Positions 32,808 through 57,779 of a DNA stretch of 63,932 bases are shown one piece after another; position 1 is the first letter of the stretch, and each line of letters starts with the position of its first letter. Source of the DNA: an uncultured Planctomycetota bacterium (GTDB lineage: Bacteria; Planctomycetota; Phycisphaerae; Sedimentisphaerales; UBA12454); NCBI GenBank assembly GCA_903847315.1, contig CAINDG010000028.1:1-63932 (forward strand), written 5' to 3'. The notes beneath the pieces are model-generated. The model was not told the origin of the DNA, searched no databases, and worked only from the letters and a program-made list of their open reading frames with translations. A program made the translations under genes and the position numbers.

Positions 32808-33838
32808 TCATCGCAGCCGGCTTTTGCTTCCAGTGACATATCCGCGAAAAGATTTGCTTTGTATTTATAATACGCAAGAGAAGCTATCATAACTGCATTA
32901 TCCGTACAATATTTTTTAGGCGCGACCAGCAGTTTTCTGCCGGTACGCTGCGCCATTTTTTCAAGTTCGTTTCGCAAAACAGTATTGGCTGCGACACCGC
33001 CGCCGAGAAGGATTGTTTTTGCACCGACTTTGTCGCAAGCCATCCTGGTTTTTTTCACAAGCACATCCACAACGGCAGCCTGGAAAGATGCCGCAATATC
33101 GGCGATTTCCTTTGGGCTCATTTTGCCTACGCGATTTCCCCCCTTCATATCCTTGCCGCAGCAGTGATAAAGAACCGCTGTCTTTAAACCGCTGAATGAA
33201 AAATCAAGCGAGTCTTTGGCAAGCATTGTCCGGGGAAAACTAATCGCATCGGCCTTGCCGTCTTTAGCGGCCTTTTCAATACTCGGCCCGCCGGGATAAG
33301 GCAGATTCAGAATCGATGCGACTTTGTCAAACGCTTCGCCCGCTGCATCATCAATAGTTGAACCGAGTAATTTAAGTTCGAGAATATTTTCGCAATCATA
33401 AAGACTTGTATGGCCGCCTGATACAACAAGAGCTACAGCGGGAAGCTGCAAATCCTTCGTGTCCATCATCGCCGACTGAAGATGCGCGTGGATATGGTTT
33501 ATCGCAATTAAAGGTTTTTCCAAAACAAGCGCAAGCGTCTTTGCGGCAGTCAGCCCGACGATAAGCGCAACGGTAAGGCCCGGCTGGTTCGCAACTGCCA
33601 CAGCGTCTATATCGCTTTTATTGAGCCGGGACTGCTCAATTGCCTGTTCAACAATCGGGTAAATCTTTTCGATATGAGCCCGTGACGCGATTTCAGGCAC
33701 AACGCCCCCGTATTTCTGATGAAGCTCTATTTGCGAGGAGATAACGTTTGAAAGCACCTCTGCCCCATTGCGCACCACCGCCGCCGCAGTCTCATCACAG
33801 CTTGTCTCAATACCGAGGATATTAATATCAGCCTTCAT
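32804..33838 (-). CDS. tsaD: tRNA N6-threonylcarbamoyladenosine synthase subunit
   Basis: 344 aa, full-length Kae1/TsaD. The ASKHA start is L-G-I-E-T-S-C-D-E-T. The metal-site H-x-x-x-H is His115/His119 in I-N-H-I-H-A-H-L. G-G-G-V-A-A-N near the C-terminus is also typical. It completes t6A37 in ANN-decoding tRNAs. The ATG and the purine stretch before it come from the 3' arm of a hairpin cassette (33838-33945). That ATG overlaps the TGA of micro-ORF 33835-33885, so initiation is probably coupled. Confidence 0.95.
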   Translation of the reverse strand: MKADINILGIETSCDETAAAVVRNGAEVLSNVISSQIELHQKYGGVVPEIASRAHIEKIYPIVEQAIEQSRLNKSDIDAVAVANQPGLTVALIVGLTAAKTLALVLEKPLIAINHIHAHLQSAMMDTKDLQLPAVALVVSGGHTSLYDCENILELKLLGSTIDDAAGEAFDKVASILNLPYPGGPSIEKAAKDGKADAISFPRTMLAKDSLDFSFSGLKTAVLYHCCGKDMKGGNRVGKMSPKEIADIAASFQAAVVDVLVKKTRMACDKVGAKTILLGGGVAANTVLRNELEKMAQRTGRKLLVAPKKYCTDNAVMIASLAYYKYKANLFADMSLEAKAGCDD

Positions 33839-33885
33839 CCCGCACTTTCTTTTAATTCGTTTTTCTTAAAATCTCTCATAATCAT
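33835..33885 (-). CDS. Micro-ORF 2 of cassette A, 16 aa, coupled to tsaD
   Basis: ATG 33885 overlaps the TGA of micro-ORF 1 (ATGA). The peptide is M-I-M-R-D-F-K-K-N-E-L-K-E-S-A-G, and its TGA overlaps the tsaD ATG, again as ATGA. The K-E-S-A-G ending matches K-E-G-A-G of the cassette ORFs at 46.9 and 56.6 kb. Whether it is translated is unproven; the evidence is the repeated architecture. Confidence 0.45.
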   Translation of the reverse strand: MIMRDFKKNELKESAG

Positions 33886-33945
33886 ACACCCGCTTCACTT
33901 CTTAATAAAATCCGAATAATTCCTGAATATTTAGAAGGTGCGGGA
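33838..33945 (-). repeat. Hairpin cassette A upstream of tsaD
   Basis: Read on the minus strand, the 5' arm at 33945-33933 is TCCCGCACCTTCT followed by AAATATTCA. The 3' arm at 33850-33838 is AGAAAGTGCGGGA and runs into the tsaD start. Arms are complementary except one position. Length 108 bases, close to copies B (109) and D (112). Confidence 0.85.
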
Positions 33946-35433: not shown

Positions 35434-35477
35434 TGTCATTTCGAGCGAAGCCCCTTAGGGGCGGAGTCGAGAAATCT
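35434..35477. repeat. TCATTTCGAGC-type dispersed repeat, left copy
   Basis: TGTCATTTCGAGCGAAG at the left and TCGAGAAATCT at the right, with an inner CCCCTTAGGGG palindrome. The sequence recurs inverted at 35836-35887. It is a common bacterial intergenic repeat type. Confidence 0.8.
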
Positions 35478-35499
35478 ATTAAAAAATCCTTAAAAAATA

Positions 35500-35787
35500 T
35501 CACTCATACCAATCCGCACTTAAATCTTTCCATCCTGGATTCATTGAATCAATCAAAGAAACTTTTTTCTCTCGCCGCCATTTTTTGATTTGTTTTTCTC
35601 TGGCGATTGCCGAAAGCGGGTCTGATACAGTTTCAACATAAACTAAACGGTTGATATTGTATCTGTCTGTAAAACCCGGTATCAAGTGATTTTTATGCTG
35701 ATATACTCTTTTCTTAATATCATTTGTCATCCCAACATATAAGGTCTTGCTTTTGCTTGACATTATATAAACACAATAGTTTTTCAT
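35500..35787 (-). CDS. Small GIY-YIG nuclease-domain protein (UPF0213-like)
   Basis: 95 aa, only the GIY-YIG domain: C-V-Y-I-M-S-S, then L-Y-V-G-M-T-N-D-I-K-K-R-V-Y-Q-H-K, with the catalytic Tyr and Arg positions and a Glu (Y-V-E-T) on the family pattern. Cellular substrate unknown. It stands alone between two inverted copies of a dispersed repeat. That is a common setting for this family and suggests mobility. Confidence 0.9.
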   Translation of the reverse strand: MKNYCVYIMSSKSKTLYVGMTNDIKKRVYQHKNHLIPGFTDRYNINRLVYVETVSDPLSAIAREKQIKKWRREKKVSLIDSMNPGWKDLSADWYE

Positions 35788-35801
35788 AAATTTCCATTAC
35801 G

Positions 35802-35887
35802 GTCATTTCGAGCTAAGTAGAAGTATCTAAAAAACAGATTTCTCCACTCCGCTCATCCCTTACGGGCTTCGCTCCGGTCGAAATGAC
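35802..35887. repeat. TCATTTCGAGC-type dispersed repeat, right palindromic unit
   Basis: GTCATTTCGAGC (35802-35813) and GGTCGAAATGAC (35875-35886) form the ends of an 86-base palindromic unit. The segment from AGATTTCTC at 35836 is the inverse of the left copy. An inner CCCTTACGGG element is present. Confidence 0.75.
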
Positions 35888-35951
35888 AGTCTTACTTTCC
35901 CTGGTATTTTACCGTAAAATCAAAAACCTTCAAGAAAATGTACTTCCGTGG

Positions 35952-46109: not shown

Positions 46110-46942
46110 TAATGCTCAACCAGAAAGGCGGCGTTGGCAAGACTACTTCGGTTGTCAACATCGCTGCGTCTCTGGCCCAAAGCGGCGCAAAGGTTGTCGC
46201 CGCCGATTTCGACCCGCAGGCACATCTCACCATACATCTCGGCATCGAACCGGACAAAGTCGAATCGGGCACATACAAAGTCCTGACCGGCTCAGCGGAT
46301 TTTGACGATGCCCTTATCGAAGCAAGACCCAACCTCTTTCTGCTCGGATCAAATATTCACCTCGTCGGTGCCGAAAGCGAGCTGGTCAGCGTCGTTGGCA
46401 GGGAAACCATCTTCCGTGAGGCCGTCGCGAAATCTAAACAGAATTTCGACTTTCTGCTGATTGACTGTCCCCCATCGCTTGGTTTGCTTACGCTTAACGC
46501 ACTTGCCGCCGCTGAAGAAGTTATTATCCCCCTTCAGCCGCATTTCCTTGCTCTGCAGGGACTGGGCAAACTTCTGCAGACCATAACCCTCGTCGGCAGA
46601 AGAATAAATCCCTCGTTGCGGGTAAGCGGAATACTTTTATGTATGTTCGACAGCAGAACTTCGCTATCGGAAGAAATCAAAAAAGATATCGACAAATTCC
46701 TCGACAATGCACGTAATAATCAGTGCCCCTGGAGCAGTGCAAAAATTATTCCCGTCTTTGTCCGCAGAAATATCAAGCTTGCCGAAGCCCCCAGCTACGG
46801 AAAAACTATTTTTGAATATGAACCCGCCTGTCACGGCGCCGAAGATTACAAACTTATCGCTGATTTCATCCGTAATGAAATAATCGCCCCCGCCGCTGAC
46901 AACCGGCAGGACAAAACAGCGCCTTTACATACCCGATTATGA
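46097..46942 (+). CDS. parA: ParA/Soj-type ATPase
   Basis: 281 aa. Deviant Walker A is K-G-G-V-G-K-T-T near residue 10; D-F-D-P-Q-A-H is Walker A'; L-I-D-C-P-P-S-L-G is Walker B. It is a chromosome-partition or cargo-positioning ATPase. No ParB lies beside it, so orphan positioning functions are possible. Its TGA overlaps the ATG of the cassette B micro-ORF. Confidence 0.9.
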   Translation: MRKIVMLNQKGGVGKTTSVVNIAASLAQSGAKVVAADFDPQAHLTIHLGIEPDKVESGTYKVLTGSADFDDALIEARPNLFLLGSNIHLVGAESELVSVVGRETIFREAVAKSKQNFDFLLIDCPPSLGLLTLNALAAAEEVIIPLQPHFLALQGLGKLLQTITLVGRRINPSLRVSGILLCMFDSRTSLSEEIKKDIDKFLDNARNNQCPWSSAKIIPVFVRRNIKLAEAPSYGKTIFEYEPACHGAEDYKLIADFIRNEIIAPAADNRQDKTAPLHTRL

Positions 46943-47055
46943 GTCCCGCACCTTCTAAATATTCAATAAATTATTGGTGTCTTTTGAACAGTTTAAAGCT
47001 TAACAGCATTACATCCCATTTAATAAATATAGAATATAAAGAAGGTGCGGGATGA
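46939..47055 (+). CDS. Micro-ORF of cassette B, 38 aa, between parA and rsmE
   Basis: ATG 46939 overlaps the parA TGA (ATGA). The frame is open for 38 codons, and its TGA overlaps the rsmE ATG (ATGA). It starts M-S-P-A-P-S-K-Y-S-I and ends Y-K-E-G-A-G; the middle is unrelated to copy D. The first and last codons are the two arms of a hairpin. It may be a translation-coupling leader or a true small protein. No function is claimed. Confidence 0.5.
   Translation: MSPAPSKYSINYWCLLNSLKLNSITSHLINIEYKEGAG
46944..47052 (+). repeat. Hairpin cassette B upstream of rsmE
   Basis: 5' arm TCCCGCACCTTCT (46944-46956) followed by AAATATTCAATA. 3' arm AGAAGGTGCGGGA (47040-47052). The 13-base arms are perfectly complementary, and the next dozen bases pair partly. 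GAAGG in the 3' arm is the rsmE Shine-Dalgarno and the arm ends at the A of its ATG. Confidence 0.9.
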
Positions 47056-47786
47056 GAACGATAAGATTTTTCTGCAATACGATAAATCAGAATACCGATG
47101 CAATTCTCGCTGATGCGCAGTTTCGCCACCTCACAAAGGTCCTCAGGCTCAAAATTGGCGATTCCGTTGAGCTTTTTGACGGCAAAGGAGCTATCGCACA
47201 GGCAATAATAGAAAAAATCGAAAAAAATCAAGCCGTTCTGACTGTCAAAACTATCAAAAATTATCCGCAGCCGAATCAGCAAAGAATAATCATAGCCTCA
47301 AGTATCGCCAAAGGAGAGCGTTTCGAGATACTTGTGGCCAAATGTACCGAACTGGGCGTTGATAGAATTGTGCCGGTCGTTTTTGAACGAACCGTCAAAC
47401 AGGCGTTGCAGCATAATCGGCTCCAAACAATCGCCGTCGAATCGACGAAACAGTGCCAGAGATTATTTTTGCCCGTAATCGATGAGCCTGAAAATTTCAA
47501 CGGAGTAATTGAAAAACTGAAAACAGAATATCCAAATGCGAAAACTATTTTCGGCTTGCCGGCTAAAAATGCCGAACCGCTTATAAACCTTGATTTCGGC
47601 TCAAATGATATTATAACTTTTATTGGCCCTGAAGGCGGCCTGACGGAAACCGAGGAAAATATGCTTAAAAAAATAAATTCGCAACCTGTCAGGCTTACAG
47701 ATACAATATTAAGAATCGAAACTGCGGCAATTGCATTCGCATCCATTCTGACCGCGAAAAGAGATTCGGAAAAACAATATGACTGA
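47052..47786 (+). CDS. rsmE: 16S rRNA (uracil-1498 N3)-methyltransferase
   Basis: 244 aa. A PUA-like N-terminal domain (H-L-T-K-V-L-R-L-K-I-G-D) precedes the SPOUT/trefoil-knot methyltransferase (F-I-G-P-E-G-G-L-T-E-T-E-E, then L-R-I-E-T-A-A-I-A). Methylates U1498 of 16S rRNA. Its ribosome site and ATG are contributed by cassette B. It overlaps the GT39 gene start by 8 bases. Confidence 0.93.
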   Translation: MRTIRFFCNTINQNTDAILADAQFRHLTKVLRLKIGDSVELFDGKGAIAQAIIEKIEKNQAVLTVKTIKNYPQPNQQRIIIASSIAKGERFEILVAKCTELGVDRIVPVVFERTVKQALQHNRLQTIAVESTKQCQRLFLPVIDEPENFNGVIEKLKTEYPNAKTIFGLPAKNAEPLINLDFGSNDIITFIGPEGGLTETEENMLKKINSQPVRLTDTILRIETAAIAFASILTAKRDSEKQYD

Positions 47787-49389: not shown

Positions 49390-49937
49390 GGCACAAGGGA
49401 TTTTAGAAAATCCATCTCCTGTACAGTAAGCTGTTGTCCTTTTATTTGTCTGATTCTTTCTATTGTCTGCTCCAGATTAAAGCCGCCCGACTTCAGCATC
49501 CACACCGCTGCAAGATATGAAACTCTCTTCTTGCCGGCATTGTCGTGCAAAAGTATAGGAAGGCTGGCTTTTTCATTCATTATCTCCAGAAATTTTTGGC
49601 TTGTCGCCGTATCGGGAATCCCGTCGTCCGGAACATTTTTTTCTATCGGCAGCTCTATATACTTTACGCCGTTGCTCCTCATCCATGCTACTTCTTCGTT
49701 ATACCAGTTCTGTTCACGATTTTCGTCGGTTTTGCGCAAATTTACAAACGCACCGATATGATACTTATATAACAGGCGGGAATAATCCATGCCTCGCGGC
49801 TGGCCGCTCGTATAGAGCACCCCGGCTTTTATCACCTGAAAATTCTTTATATGAAAATGTCTTACAAGTCCTATTATGCATAAAACAATTATTAAAACCC
49901 ATAACCAGACGAAAATAGGATTTTTATCTTTTTTCAT
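49386..49937 (-). CDS. Membrane-anchored tyrosine/dual-specificity phosphatase-like protein lacking the catalytic Cys
   Basis: 183 aa from the ATG at 49937. One membrane helix (about 8-24) precedes a DSP-type domain (L-Y-T-S-G-Q-P, then F-V-N-L-R-K). The P-loop H-C-x-x-G-x-x-R is here H131-D132-N-A-G-K-K-R138: Asp replaces Cys, while His, Gly and Arg remain. It should not form a cysteinyl-phosphate, so either a pseudophosphatase or a different chemistry is implied. Its ribosome site AAGAAGG and start match the 3' arm of the cassettes. It overlaps the GT2 gene by 14 bases and is convergent with the GT39 gene. Confidence 0.75.
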   Translation of the reverse strand: MKKDKNPIFVWLWVLIIVLCIIGLVRHFHIKNFQVIKAGVLYTSGQPRGMDYSRLLYKYHIGAFVNLRKTDENREQNWYNEEVAWMRSNGVKYIELPIEKNVPDDGIPDTATSQKFLEIMNEKASLPILLHDNAGKKRVSYLAAVWMLKSGGFNLEQTIERIRQIKGQQLTVQEMDFLKSLVP

Positions 49938-50904
49938 TCCGCACCTTCTTATAAATACTTCTGACCGCATAGATTTTTCGGTCAGTCGCTTCAAAATAAA
50001 CTCTGCTTATCATTTCGCCGAGAAGACCGGTTGAAACAAAAATCAGTCCCATAAGCATAAGACTTATGCCCGCCGCCGTCAGCGGCCCGTGTGCTACAAA
50101 TATCGGAACGCTGAAATAAAACTTATCGAAAAGAACATAAGTGAAAATAAGACCGGCCGCTATAACGCAGTAAAAAGCAGCCTTGCCGAAAAAATGCAGC
50201 GGCCGCGTAATATATCCCAAAAGAAATCGAAGCGTAATCAAATCGAACGCCACTCTGAACGTCCGCGATATGCCGTAGTTGCTCTTGCCGGAAGGTCTTT
50301 CTACATTTTTGATTGGTATCTCGATAATTTTCCCGCCGGTAAACGAGACAAGAGCCGGTATAAATCGATGCATTTCGCCGTAGAGCCGCAAATCCAATAT
50401 TATCTGCCGCTGATATGCCTTAAACGTCGTACCGAAATCGTGAATATCCACGCCGCTCACTTTCGATGCCATCCAGTTCGCCGCCTTGCTCGGAATTTTG
50501 CGCATAATCAGATTATCAACCCGCTTCTCACGCCATCCGCTGACAACATCGTAGCCTTCTTCTATCTTTTTCAGAAAATTGGGTATCTCTTCTGGCAGAT
50601 GCTGCAGGTCGCCGTCCATACTGACTATCACTTCGCCCCGCGTATGGTCGAAACCCGCCGCCAGCGCAGGCGTCTGCCCGAAATTCCGCCGAAGCTGCAC
50701 TACTACGACATTTTCATCCGCCTCGGAAATGCCTTTCAGCTTTTCAAGCGTCGCGTCGCTGCTGCCGTCATCGACAAGCACAAGTTCATAACTTTTGCCC
50801 GTCTGCTTCATCACCTTTGTAAGTCGCTCGTAAAGTTCCTGCACGACCGACTGCTCGTTATACAAAGGCACTACCACCGAATATTTTACACTCGTTTCAG
50901 TCAT
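49924..50904 (-). CDS. GT2 polyprenyl-phosphate glycosyltransferase (ArnC/FlmF/DPM1-like)
   Basis: 326 aa. The GT-A domain has V-V-P-L-Y-N-E-Q-S, V-L-V-D-D-G-S-S-D and S-M-D-G-D-L-Q-H (D-x-D). Two C-terminal membrane helices (about 230-255 and 265-290) are as in ArnC, GtrB and FlmF. It would load a sugar onto undecaprenyl phosphate. The deacetylase gene is 2 bases upstream, so the two enzymes probably act in series. Confidence 0.88.
   Translation of the reverse strand: MTETSVKYSVVVPLYNEQSVVQELYERLTKVMKQTGKSYELVLVDDGSSDATLEKLKGISEADENVVVVQLRRNFGQTPALAAGFDHTRGEVIVSMDGDLQHLPEEIPNFLKKIEEGYDVVSGWREKRVDNLIMRKIPSKAANWMASKVSGVDIHDFGTTFKAYQRQIILDLRLYGEMHRFIPALVSFTGGKIIEIPIKNVERPSGKSNYGISRTFRVAFDLITLRFLLGYITRPLHFFGKAAFYCVIAAGLIFTYVLFDKFYFSVPIFVAHGPLTAAGISLMLMGLIFVSTGLLGEMISRVYFEATDRKIYAVRSIYKKVRNEKR
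49934..49950 (-). repeat. Half-site of the cassette family (arm E)
   Basis: Minus strand AAGAAGGTGCGGAATGA differs at one base from the 3' arm plus start of cassettes B and D. It again provides the Shine-Dalgarno and ATG of a gene. No complementary 5' arm is seen upstream, so chance or an eroded copy are both possible. Confidence 0.5.
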
Positions 50905-54853: not shown

Positions 54854-54909
54854 TCCCGCACCTTCTAAATATTCAATAGATCACATTATTTAAAAAAGAA
54901 GGTGCGGGA
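54854..54909 (+). repeat. Hairpin cassette C, short degenerate copy
   Basis: 5' arm TCCCGCACCTTCT (54854-54866) plus AAATATTCAATA. 3' arm AGAAGGTGCGGGA (54897-54909). The spacer is 30 bases instead of about 83-86. There is no ATG before the 5' arm (ACG instead), a TAA interrupts the frame, and the 3' arm continues as CTATTTTTG rather than TGA, so it may act as a terminator-like hairpin. It lies 52 bases upstream of the lptF-like gene. Confidence 0.85.
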
Positions 54910-54961: not shown

Positions 54962-56557
54962 ATGGTTTTCATTCTTCACAGATACATTTTTAAAGAATTA
55001 TTCAAGGTCTTTGTCCTTTCGGCTCTGGCCCTTGGCGTTATTATGAGCCTGGGCAGTCTTCTGCGCCCGGTTCAGGAATTCGGCGTAGGTCCCCGTCAGG
55101 TCTTCGACCTGCTTGGTTATTTTATGCCGATAACAATGACCTTTGTTTTGCCGGTCGCCGCTCTTTTCGCGACATCGCTTGTCTATGGCAGATTTGCCGC
55201 CGACAACGAATTTGACGCCTGTAAAGCTAGCGGAATAAGTCCCGCAATGCTCTTTTACCCGGCTCTTGTATTGGCGATTATAATTGCCATTGCAAATTTA
55301 CTATTAAGTTTCCACGTTGTGCCCGCTTACGTCCACCGCGCGGAAATGGCTATGAAGGCCGACGCCAAGCAGATACTTTTCCGAAACATCCAGCGGCAGG
55401 GCTATTATTGTCTGCCCGGCGGGCAGTTCAGAATTTATGCCGATGCCGCGGACATCAAAAACTCCGGCCTGCTGGGGGTGGTAATTATTGACAACAACAA
55501 GAACCGAGAAAGCAAACTCATCACCGCTGAAGCGGCAACTATAAATTTTGACAACACGACGAAAACCAATGATGTAAAGGTTTACGCTAAAAATGCCTTT
55601 CAATTTGATGAGCATGGCGGTGTTTTCTTCAAGGCGATTTCAGTGCTCGGCCAATTTGAGTCCCTTATGGCCGACAACGTAGCATTCCGCAACATTGAGC
55701 AGATGAATACTATCAAGGTTGCCCCTATAACTTATTATCCGATAGCCGTCTGCGCCTGGAACGCCTACGAACAGCTGACAATCGAACTTTTGCACCAGGA
55801 AATTAACAATGTTCTCAATTTTAAAACAGACAACTTCTACCAGTTCCATAACGACCAGTCTCTGGTGCGATTCACCGGCGAAAAATGCACGCTTGACCCC
55901 GAACAGAACGCGATAGAGGTTATCGGAAAAATTGTATTATTCGAATACGATAAAAACACAGGCGAACTCACAAAAAGCTATCGCGGCGAAAAACTCTATA
56001 TCCGTCTCTCCGCCGAAACAGAAACCAGGCCAAGCTCTAAAATCATACTTACTATGCCAAACGCAATCTGGCTTGAACGGGGTGCCGAATTCATAAAGCC
56101 CAGATACTCCGCAAAAAATCTCGCCCTGCCGGACTCCATCACCGCTAAACTCTCAGAAGATGTTATTAGTACCGTCGAAAAACATAGTTATCTCTCTGCT
56201 CCATCCCAAAAATTCGAGGACCTTCTTAAGGAGATGAAACGAAAAATCCGTGTAACGCTTTTTGAAATCAAGGCTGAAGTCCATTCGAGACTCGTCTTTG
56301 GCATAGGCTGTATAACTCTCATTATCCTCGGTACAGAACTTGGCATTAGATTCAGAGGAGGACATCTCCTCACTGCCTTCGGTGTCAGCTCCATACCCGC
56401 TGCTGCCCTGCTTGTCTTTATTATGGCTGGAAAAAATATAACGAGAAATCAGAATTTACAAATAGGCGCAGACTTCGGCGTCGGTTTTATGTGGGCAGGA
56501 CTGTTCGTCCTGTCGGTCTTCGCTCTTATATTTTATAGAAAATTGCTGAAGAATTAA
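54962..56557 (+). CDS. lptF: LptF/LptG family permease (YjgP/YjgQ), long form
   Basis: 531 aa. Two membrane helix pairs at each end (about 10-110 and 440-530) enclose a long periplasmic jellyroll-like region; at 531 residues it is well above the usual 360-390. L-H-R-Y-I-F-K-E-L-F-K at the N-terminus is typical. With LptB (42 kb) and the next gene it should make the inner-membrane LPS extractor. No clear ribosome site. F versus G assignment is by gene order only. Confidence 0.85.
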   Translation: MVFILHRYIFKELFKVFVLSALALGVIMSLGSLLRPVQEFGVGPRQVFDLLGYFMPITMTFVLPVAALFATSLVYGRFAADNEFDACKASGISPAMLFYPALVLAIIIAIANLLLSFHVVPAYVHRAEMAMKADAKQILFRNIQRQGYYCLPGGQFRIYADAADIKNSGLLGVVIIDNNKNRESKLITAEAATINFDNTTKTNDVKVYAKNAFQFDEHGGVFFKAISVLGQFESLMADNVAFRNIEQMNTIKVAPITYYPIAVCAWNAYEQLTIELLHQEINNVLNFKTDNFYQFHNDQSLVRFTGEKCTLDPEQNAIEVIGKIVLFEYDKNTGELTKSYRGEKLYIRLSAETETRPSSKIILTMPNAIWLERGAEFIKPRYSAKNLALPDSITAKLSEDVISTVEKHSYLSAPSQKFEDLLKEMKRKIRVTLFEIKAEVHSRLVFGIGCITLIILGTELGIRFRGGHLLTAFGVSSIPAAALLVFIMAGKNITRNQNLQIGADFGVGFMWAGLFVLSVFALIFYRKLLKN

Positions 56558-56559
56558 AA

Positions 56560-56679
56560 ATGAATCCCGCTCCTTCTAAATATTCAATATTTCAGATATA
56601 TCTTTCAAAAAACAGAAAGAATGATATTTTTTATAAAAATGTGCCTTTTAAAAATAGAACAAAAGAAGGTGCGGGATGA
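56560..56679 (+). CDS. Micro-ORF of cassette D, 39 aa, between lptF and lptG
   Basis: ATG 56560 lies 2 bases after the lptF stop. The frame is open for 39 codons and its TGA overlaps the lptG ATG (ATGA). It starts M-N-P-A-P-S-K-Y-S-I and ends T-K-E-G-A-G. The middle is basic and aromatic and differs from copy B. See the finding on the cassette family; translation is unproven. Confidence 0.5.
   Translation: MNPAPSKYSIFQIYLSKNRKNDIFYKNVPFKNRTKEGAG
56565..56676 (+). repeat. Hairpin cassette D upstream of lptG
   Basis: 5' arm TCCCGCTCCTTCT (56565-56577, one change from the family) plus AAATATTCAATA. 3' arm AGAAGGTGCGGGA (56664-56676). It supplies GAAGG and the ATG of the next gene. Confidence 0.9.
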
Positions 56680-57779
56680 AAATCCTTGATAAATATGTAA
56701 CGCAAAATTTCCTCATAGGCTATCTGATTTCTTTTCTTGTGCTGATGGGCCTGCGAATAATGATAGACCTGTTCGTTAATATCGACGAATTCACTCAAAA
56801 TGTTCAGCTTACCGCCTGGCAGGTTACCGCGAACGTCATATCATATTACGGCAGGTACAGTTTTTTATACTTCCGCGACTTTGCGGGAATGATAACGGTA
56901 GTAGCCGCCGTGTTCTCGCTTGGCAAAATGACGAAAAACAACGAACTTGTCGCTGTAATGGCGTCAGGCGTAAGTCTTAAACGGCTGATAGCTCCCATTT
57001 TGTTTTTATCCCTCGCTTTTACCGGCCTGCATGTGGCCGACGAGGAATTTTTCATACCTCCTATGGCCGATAAGCTCGTCCGCTCGCATGACGCGGTTGA
57101 CGAAACTCTCACTTATGATATGTGGTTTATCGGCGATGGCCGCGGCAATCTTTTCTGCTCGCCGCAGTTCAAGGTCAAAGAGGCCGAAATTCAAAGTCCG
57201 ACAATAATAACGCGAACAAGGAAAGGTAACTCGCTGCTGTGGGACGTCACAGGCATCATCAAGGCCGATTCCGCCCGGTATGACAATCATTCAAACTCCT
57301 GGATTCTTAACAACGGCGTCTTTATGCCGGTATCGCGCCAGCCTGCCGACAAATCTTATCAGACGATAACCGCCTGTCCAAGCGACCTCACACCAAAAGA
57401 TATCCCCGTAAGGCGAAAATCAGCTCATATGGACCTGCTTAGTTCATACGACCTTATGAAACTTGCCCGCCAGAATCCAAAGGACCTTGCCAGGCTTTAC
57501 GCACAGAAAAATTTCCGCATAACAGACCCGATAATAAATCTCACTATGTTAATAATTTCTCTGCCGATACTTGTCTGCCGAGACCCCAAAAGCCTCAAAT
57601 CGGCTGTATTTATAAGTTTCTCTCTGACAGGGATTTGTTATATTATGACCTTCGTGTCTAAAATTCTTGCCTCGGAAATAACGATTGCAGGCAGAATTAT
57701 GCCGGAATTTTGGGCCTGGCTCCCCATTTTTATCTTCCTGCCCATCGCTTTTATCGAACTGGATTCTATGAAAACCTGA
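56676..57779 (+). CDS. lptG: LptF/LptG family permease (YjgP/YjgQ)
   Basis: 367 aa, normal family length. Start I-L-D-K-Y-V-T-Q-N-F-L-I-G-Y. Helices are at both ends, with a periplasmic domain about 105-265. N-L-T-M-L-I-I-S-L-P-I in the C-terminal half is typical. It partners the preceding permease in LPS transport. Start and ribosome site lie in cassette D and overlap the micro-ORF stop. Confidence 0.87.
   Translation: MKILDKYVTQNFLIGYLISFLVLMGLRIMIDLFVNIDEFTQNVQLTAWQVTANVISYYGRYSFLYFRDFAGMITVVAAVFSLGKMTKNNELVAVMASGVSLKRLIAPILFLSLAFTGLHVADEEFFIPPMADKLVRSHDAVDETLTYDMWFIGDGRGNLFCSPQFKVKEAEIQSPTIITRTRKGNSLLWDVTGIIKADSARYDNHSNSWILNNGVFMPVSRQPADKSYQTITACPSDLTPKDIPVRRKSAHMDLLSSYDLMKLARQNPKDLARLYAQKNFRITDPIINLTMLIISLPILVCRDPKSLKSAVFISFSLTGICYIMTFVSKILASEITIAGRIMPEFWAWLPIFIFLPIAFIELDSMKT

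Follow-up and report, generated by a model that had tools for sequence, protein, structure and literature searches.

The 112-bp insert between an lptF-like and an lptG-like permease gene of an uncultured Planctomycetota bacterium is one member of a family of mobile elements with terminal inverted repeats (TIRs) and target site duplications (TSDs). It was found in contig CAINDG010000028.1, in a 63,932-nt stretch of DNA that was analysed as a whole (the window), and is referred to here as copy D (56565-56676, + strand). Copy D is probably a non-autonomous, MITE-like deletion derivative of an element of ~0.3 kb whose only gene encodes a GIY-YIG nuclease, with this nuclease as the putative mobilizer. 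Terminal inverted repeats, TSDs and empty sites, which are features of MITEs, were all found, as was an internal deletion relative to a parent whose autonomy we infer.

The lptF-like gene (54962-56557) and the lptG-like gene (56676-57779), both on the + strand, match Pfam PF03739 (LptF_LptG). Copy D lies between two copies of the TSD TGAA, the left one (56561-56564) within ATGAA and the right one at 56677-56680, both also on the + strand. It begins with the left repeat TCCCGCTCCTTC (56565-56576, +), which codes for NPAPS, and ends with the right repeat GAAGGTGCGGGA (56665-56676, +), which codes for EGAG. This right repeat holds the Shine-Dalgarno sequence GAAGG and the A of the lptG ATG, and the right TSD supplies the TG of the same ATG and the TGA stop of a 39-codon micro-ORF (56560-56679, +; MNPAPSKYSIFQIYLSKNRKNDIFYKNVPFKNRTKEGAG followed by the stop), the lptG start codon being completed by the element. 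Most of the anatomy described in an earlier note on this DNA was reproduced: the lptF stop TAA lies at 56555-56557 with the micro-ORF ATG 2 bases downstream, the micro-ORF TGA (56677-56679) overlaps the lptG ATG (56676-56678), the first ten codons differ from those of a second copy, copy B (46940-47056 in this comparison), at a single residue (MS vs MN), and GAAGG at 56665-56669 is exactly complementary to CCTTC at 56572-56576. The C-terminal codons are also identical to those of copy B, although five codons (KEGAG) are shared and not four as had been counted. Folding of the RNA of 56540-56700 gave -29.9 kcal/mol (z = -3.07), a value equalled by 0 of 200 shuffles. A comparison of the junction among relatives, which the earlier note had proposed, revealed empty junctions without the element: most relatives lack the insert (the empty site in G009 reads GAGTTAAAAATGAAAATACTT), which is present only in the genome of the window and in the congener G006. 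A plasmid search with copy D gave no match.

Aligning the ends of 108 copies, orthologous inserts included, yielded the element consensus TCCCGCACCTTC ... GAAGGTGCGGGA with a flanking 4-bp duplication. An exact 4-bp TSD is present in 83 of 107 copies, whereas shuffling of the right flanks gave 35.5 on average and at most 47. Most informative are the other flanks: 14 of the 30 copies with left flanks other than TGAA or TTCA still have an exact match on the right (the matched non-TGAA pairs include TGTA, TGGA, TGAG, TCAA, TTGA, and CTCA). The genome of the window contains at least 14 copies, of which the earlier note, confined to the window, had seen four. The arm pattern has 16 matches in this genome versus one for the reversed pattern, exact 12-mer arms occur 26 times, and single family relatives have up to 30 arm matches. 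A 21-mer of the element is also found in Omnitrophota, a different phylum, and a search of viral contigs with the 16-mer arm returned chance matches only, with no opposing arm. The window itself holds three copies besides copy D: copy A (33838-33945, - strand; 108 bp, TSD TGAA) at the tsaD start with a closed micro-ORF, copy B (46944-47052, + strand; 109 bp, TSD TGAG) at the start of an rsmE-like gene with an open micro-ORF, and the degenerate copy C (54854-54909, + strand; 56 bp) upstream of lptF, with neither a TSD nor a gene start. An arm-like sequence, GAAGGTGCGGAATGA, straddles another gene start at 49937-49948 and is either a solo arm or a coincidence; the orthologue of this gene in G003 begins at a complete short element. 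Tandem insertions also occur (L158, L161, and L193), in which the duplicated TGAA of one element served as the insertion site of the next.

The great majority of the copies, 93 of 108 (66 sense and 27 antisense; 74 groups by downstream gene), are located exactly on a gene start, defined as an ORF of at least 40 codons from the ATG or GTG formed by the element's last base and the duplicated TG. For comparison, only ~14 of the 728 TGAA sites in the window coincide with a start of this kind. The repeat and the duplicated TGAA recreate the Shine-Dalgarno sequence GAAGG and the ATG(A) of the downstream gene and, where neighbouring genes overlap, the stop of the upstream gene as well. Thus, by rebuilding the start signals of the host gene, insertion would be close to neutral, and because the ends are inverted repeats, GAAGG is correctly spaced from the ATG in both orientations. 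The bias towards start codons may reflect target choice, the removal of harmful insertions, or both. The ruvC start was hit by two different repeat families in different relatives (L280, L181, and L217), which favours some target choice.

Full-length versions of ~295-330 bp occur in one congener and in Omnitrophota, and their sole protein is a GIY-YIG nuclease of 95-103 aa. The 297-bp version in the congener G005 (L060/L092) encodes a GIY-YIG nuclease beginning MNPAPSQYSIYHVYLLKSKADNSLYIGYTNNLNRRLDEHNSG..., with a domain hit to Pfam PF01541 (E = 4e-17, 62.6 bits vs a cut-off of 22.6) and 1zg2 as the best PDB match (E = 3e-4). Two intact Omnitrophota copies, located by a pattern search for the arm and then a GIY-YIG motif, precede a pgsA-like gene (L176) and nrdR (L177), and all of these intact copies have the same ends and TSD as the short ones. 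A protein search recovered an additional nuclease with decayed ends (L239), giving only four nucleases of exactly this clade. The clade is supported at 98% (SH-aLRT) and contains members from both phyla. The nuclease N-terminus MNPAPS falls within the left repeat, and one of the intact copies (L177) also has the C-terminus KEGAG with its stop inside the right repeat; here the frame begins in the duplicated ATGAA, spans both repeats, and stops after KEGAG, overlapping the start of the next gene. The conservation of the micro-ORF ends is thus explained, as the transposon ends also encode the termini of the nuclease.

To our knowledge, no GIY-YIG enzyme acts as a transposase, and the familiar ones leave 3' overhangs, by which a 4-bp duplication is not explained; both points count against the nuclease as the mobilizer, as do the small number of nucleases in its clade (four) and the lack of a clear TSD in some other repeat families. 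A conventional transposase encoded elsewhere could instead move the ends in trans, with the GIY-YIG gene as a hitch-hiking passenger. The combination of 4-bp TSDs and perfect TIRs is typical of DDE cut-and-paste elements, and the genome of the window, in which no intact copy of this family was found, contains short copies only, implying action in trans at some time. However, the intact copies hold the GIY-YIG ORF only, with no transposase gene (DDE, HUH, serine, or tyrosine) between the ends, and no longer transposase-bearing element with these ends was found, the arms pairing within ~330 bp. In addition, each of several repeat families surrounds genes of a GIY-YIG clade of its own and no other gene, and we therefore consider a transposase acting in trans rather unlikely. 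RAYT/REP and HUH elements were rejected as candidates on the grounds that TSDs are present and that the element contains no such gene.

These repeat families emerged from a survey of GIY-YIG genes in Planctomycetota and Omnitrophota, in which inverted repeats with a score of at least 12 were found at the borders of 28 of 61 genes, including a few with common REP-like palindromes that are not immediate terminal repeats, versus 4 of 340 control positions. The repeat type tracks the nuclease tree (10 changes vs 23.6 in shuffles, none of the 200 being this low). A second family (TCCCGTTAGACC ... GGTCTAACGGGA, encoding MNPVRP...LTG followed by the stop) has exact duplications in 16 of 21 copies, with 18 of the 21 at gene starts and four being full-length nucleases; among the other families, ACCCTCACACC-type repeats show no clear TSD. 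As several repeat families each surround their own GIY-YIG clade, we infer that the ends are recognized by the nuclease rather than by an unseen transposase. The GIY-YIG protein would then cut the repeats of its own clade and so move both intact and deleted copies.

Further GIY-YIG genes with repeats at their borders were observed in the window and in related genomes. A gene of another subfamily (35500-35787, - strand, within 35434-35888) is flanked by an inverted REP-like palindrome, GTCATTTCGA...AGAAATCT, and a 162-nt insert in the rsmE copy of G006 (L213) resembles a short form of this repeat. Other GIY-YIG genes (L099, L103, L104, and L120) lie between common palindromes such as CATTCCCGCGAAAGCGGGAATCC; a number of widespread repeat families may owe their existence to GIY-YIG nucleases. 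Two identical GIY-YIG insertions in G014 (L100 and L111) have 16-bp inverted ends (TCCGTCACTTGATTTA), and their site, adjoining CTATGACGGTCCTAAGGTAGC, reads as a conserved part of the 23S rRNA. Finally, a GIY-YIG element with ACCCTCACACCAATGGT ends (L093, G009) is located at the start of a phosphofructokinase gene, where its stop overlaps a new ATG that lengthens the kinase by ~six residues; short relatives of this element are found in the genome of the window (G000 C26 and C47), without a clear TSD.

Intact and short forms share orthologous junctions at two genes, namely a GTPase gene in the genus of the window (intact nuclease L060 and short remnant L035) and the pgsA-like gene in Omnitrophota (intact L176 and short L073). 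This decay in place, together with the GIY-YIG domain, would agree with homing endonuclease genes that spread only allelically and left short copies as decay products that never moved. In contrast, the same deleted forms recur at non-orthologous sites: copy A shares 94% identity with a copy located at another gene in G003, compared to 91% with its tsaD orthologue in G006, and the D type is present at both lptG and an apgM-like gene with 82-83% identity, compared to a mean interior background of 62%. The occurrence of the same short form at different loci indicates that short forms have moved. As the copies also occupy the starts of dozens of unrelated genes, with 4-bp TSDs of varied sequence, and not the one conserved allelic site of a homing endonuclease, purely allelic spread appears very improbable, and a mobile element with non-autonomous derivatives remains the preferred reading.

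The buried Shine-Dalgarno sequence, the inverted repeat, and the overlapping micro-ORF had been interpreted in the earlier note as a regulatory leader. While all three features are present, a leader dedicated to lptF/lptG is contradicted by the dispersal of the same element at dozens of unrelated genes. More generally, a cis-regulatory leader could have spread by regulatory selection if the hairpin hid the ribosome site of lptG and were opened by translation of the micro-ORF, and both the stability of the fold and the open frames at the lptG, rsmE, apgM-like, ispH, and ruvC orthologues are in line with this. Yet the genes concerned are functionally unrelated, the element occurs next to them in both orientations and with TSDs, and the micro-ORF is closed in 33 of 53 sense-oriented gene groups. 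The substitution pattern of the arms also differs from that of a paired RNA. Double Watson-Crick changes between the arms are frequent (28 vs 4.8 expected, with a maximum of 12 in 1000 shuffles), but wobble changes show no such excess (29 vs 50, the same proportion as mismatches), and the 12-nt arms of copy D (TCCCGCTCCTTC / GAAGGTGCGGGA) differ by one uncompensated T-T mismatch. Taken together, these observations point to a DNA-level symmetry of transposon ends, since selection for pairing should favour wobbles, whereas recognition of both ends or copying between them would not; RNA-pairing selection was rejected as the cause of the arms for want of a wobble excess. An Rfam scan of the element matched no curated family either, and with neither such a match nor pair-preserving covariation that includes G-U pairs, a cis-regulatory origin seems highly unlikely.

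Judged from its sequence, the micro-ORF is a nuclease gene with its middle deleted, in which N- and C-terminal GIY-YIG remnants are fused. As a Pfam search of the 39-aa peptide gave no match, homology was examined by shuffling: codons 10-26 (IFQIYLSKNRKNDIFYK) score 46 against intact nuclease N-termini, which is reached by 0 of 20,000 shuffles (maximum 32). Intermediates with in-frame deletions (L179 and L201) retain YIGY or HIGYT. At lptG, the micro-ORF is open in both carrier genomes, and the 15 differences between the two copies comprise 4 synonymous and 11 nonsynonymous changes, so it is the frame, not the peptide, that is retained; a functional micropeptide was rejected for the same reason. 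A ribosome finishing the micro-ORF at ATGA may pass directly to lptG and, while translating, would hold the inverted repeat melted, which could account for the retention of the frame at this gene.

Across the 53 sense-oriented gene groups, the micro-ORF continues uninterrupted up to the overlap in 18 and is closed in 33 (e.g. tsaD), while the 2 groups that contain intact nucleases are mixed. Coupling is thus not generally required, and as the frame is lost at most junctions, it is not the general purpose of the element. Open micro-ORFs are found in 27 of 66 sense copies versus ~2.5 predicted by interior shuffling, an excess much of which is explained by shared descent from an open gene. Secondary insertions within the micro-ORF, of 162 nt at rsmE and 102 nt at the apgM-like gene, still leave the frame open, and for the antisense copies at ispH and ruvC it is open in every readable species. 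Translational coupling is therefore a likely consequence of insertion at some junctions, with lptG among them.

On balance, we lean slightly towards a new class of minimal autonomous elements in which a single GIY-YIG domain of ~95-100 aa serves as the transposase, with near-silent insertion at ATGAA starts, a 4-bp duplication, several families, and a distribution covering at least Planctomycetota and Omnitrophota. In this proposed class, the repeats would double as coding ends and ribosome-binding site. An element with terminal repeats and a GIY-YIG nuclease as its only gene fits no transposase class known to us, and it is from this architecture that the putative transposase activity of the nuclease is proposed. 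No element of this kind was described in the part of the literature that was searched, so that its novelty is provisional. If the nuclease is the mobilizer, its transposition chemistry would be new for GIY-YIG enzymes, and the autonomous element would, as far as we know, be about twofold shorter than any known insertion sequence. The insertions also show how operons of essential genes can take up an element without harm, the stop, the ribosome site, and the start codon all being restored. Elements of this kind would further account for part of the short palindromic repeats and micro-ORFs with conserved ends in environmental genomes.

Several known systems share parts of this architecture. MITEs and other non-autonomous IS derivatives also have terminal inverted repeats, short TSDs, and dispersed copies, and internal-deletion derivatives outnumber intact copies in both cases, but the parent found here is only ~0.3 kb long, encodes a GIY-YIG nuclease in place of a DDE, HUH, serine, or tyrosine transposase, and is inserted mostly at start codons. 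ERIC, Correia, RPE, and other intergenic palindromic repeats are similar in being ~100 bp long, dispersed near or inside genes, and nearly neutral; for the repeat described here, however, the parental nuclease gene has been identified, and the repeat itself supplies a start codon and Shine-Dalgarno sequence. Free-standing GIY-YIG homing endonucleases and UPF0213/YhbQ-type proteins (PDB 1zg2, 1ywl) share the GIY-YIG domain by sequence, but in the present family the gene ends are inverted repeats, and many ectopic sites with TSDs are occupied instead of the one allelic site of homing endonucleases. A GIY-YIG nuclease gene is likewise one component of the mobile Tsy transposons, although these are moved by a tyrosine recombinase with the nuclease as a dispensable helper, and inverted-repeat ends were not found (PMC10293859). 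Finally, GIY-YIG-encoding insertions that are neither group I nor group II introns occur in the rRNA genes of CPR bacteria (PMC11270868); they differ in being sited in rRNA genes, and terminal repeats are not described for them in the part of that report consulted. The 23S copy in G014 has 16-bp inverted ends.
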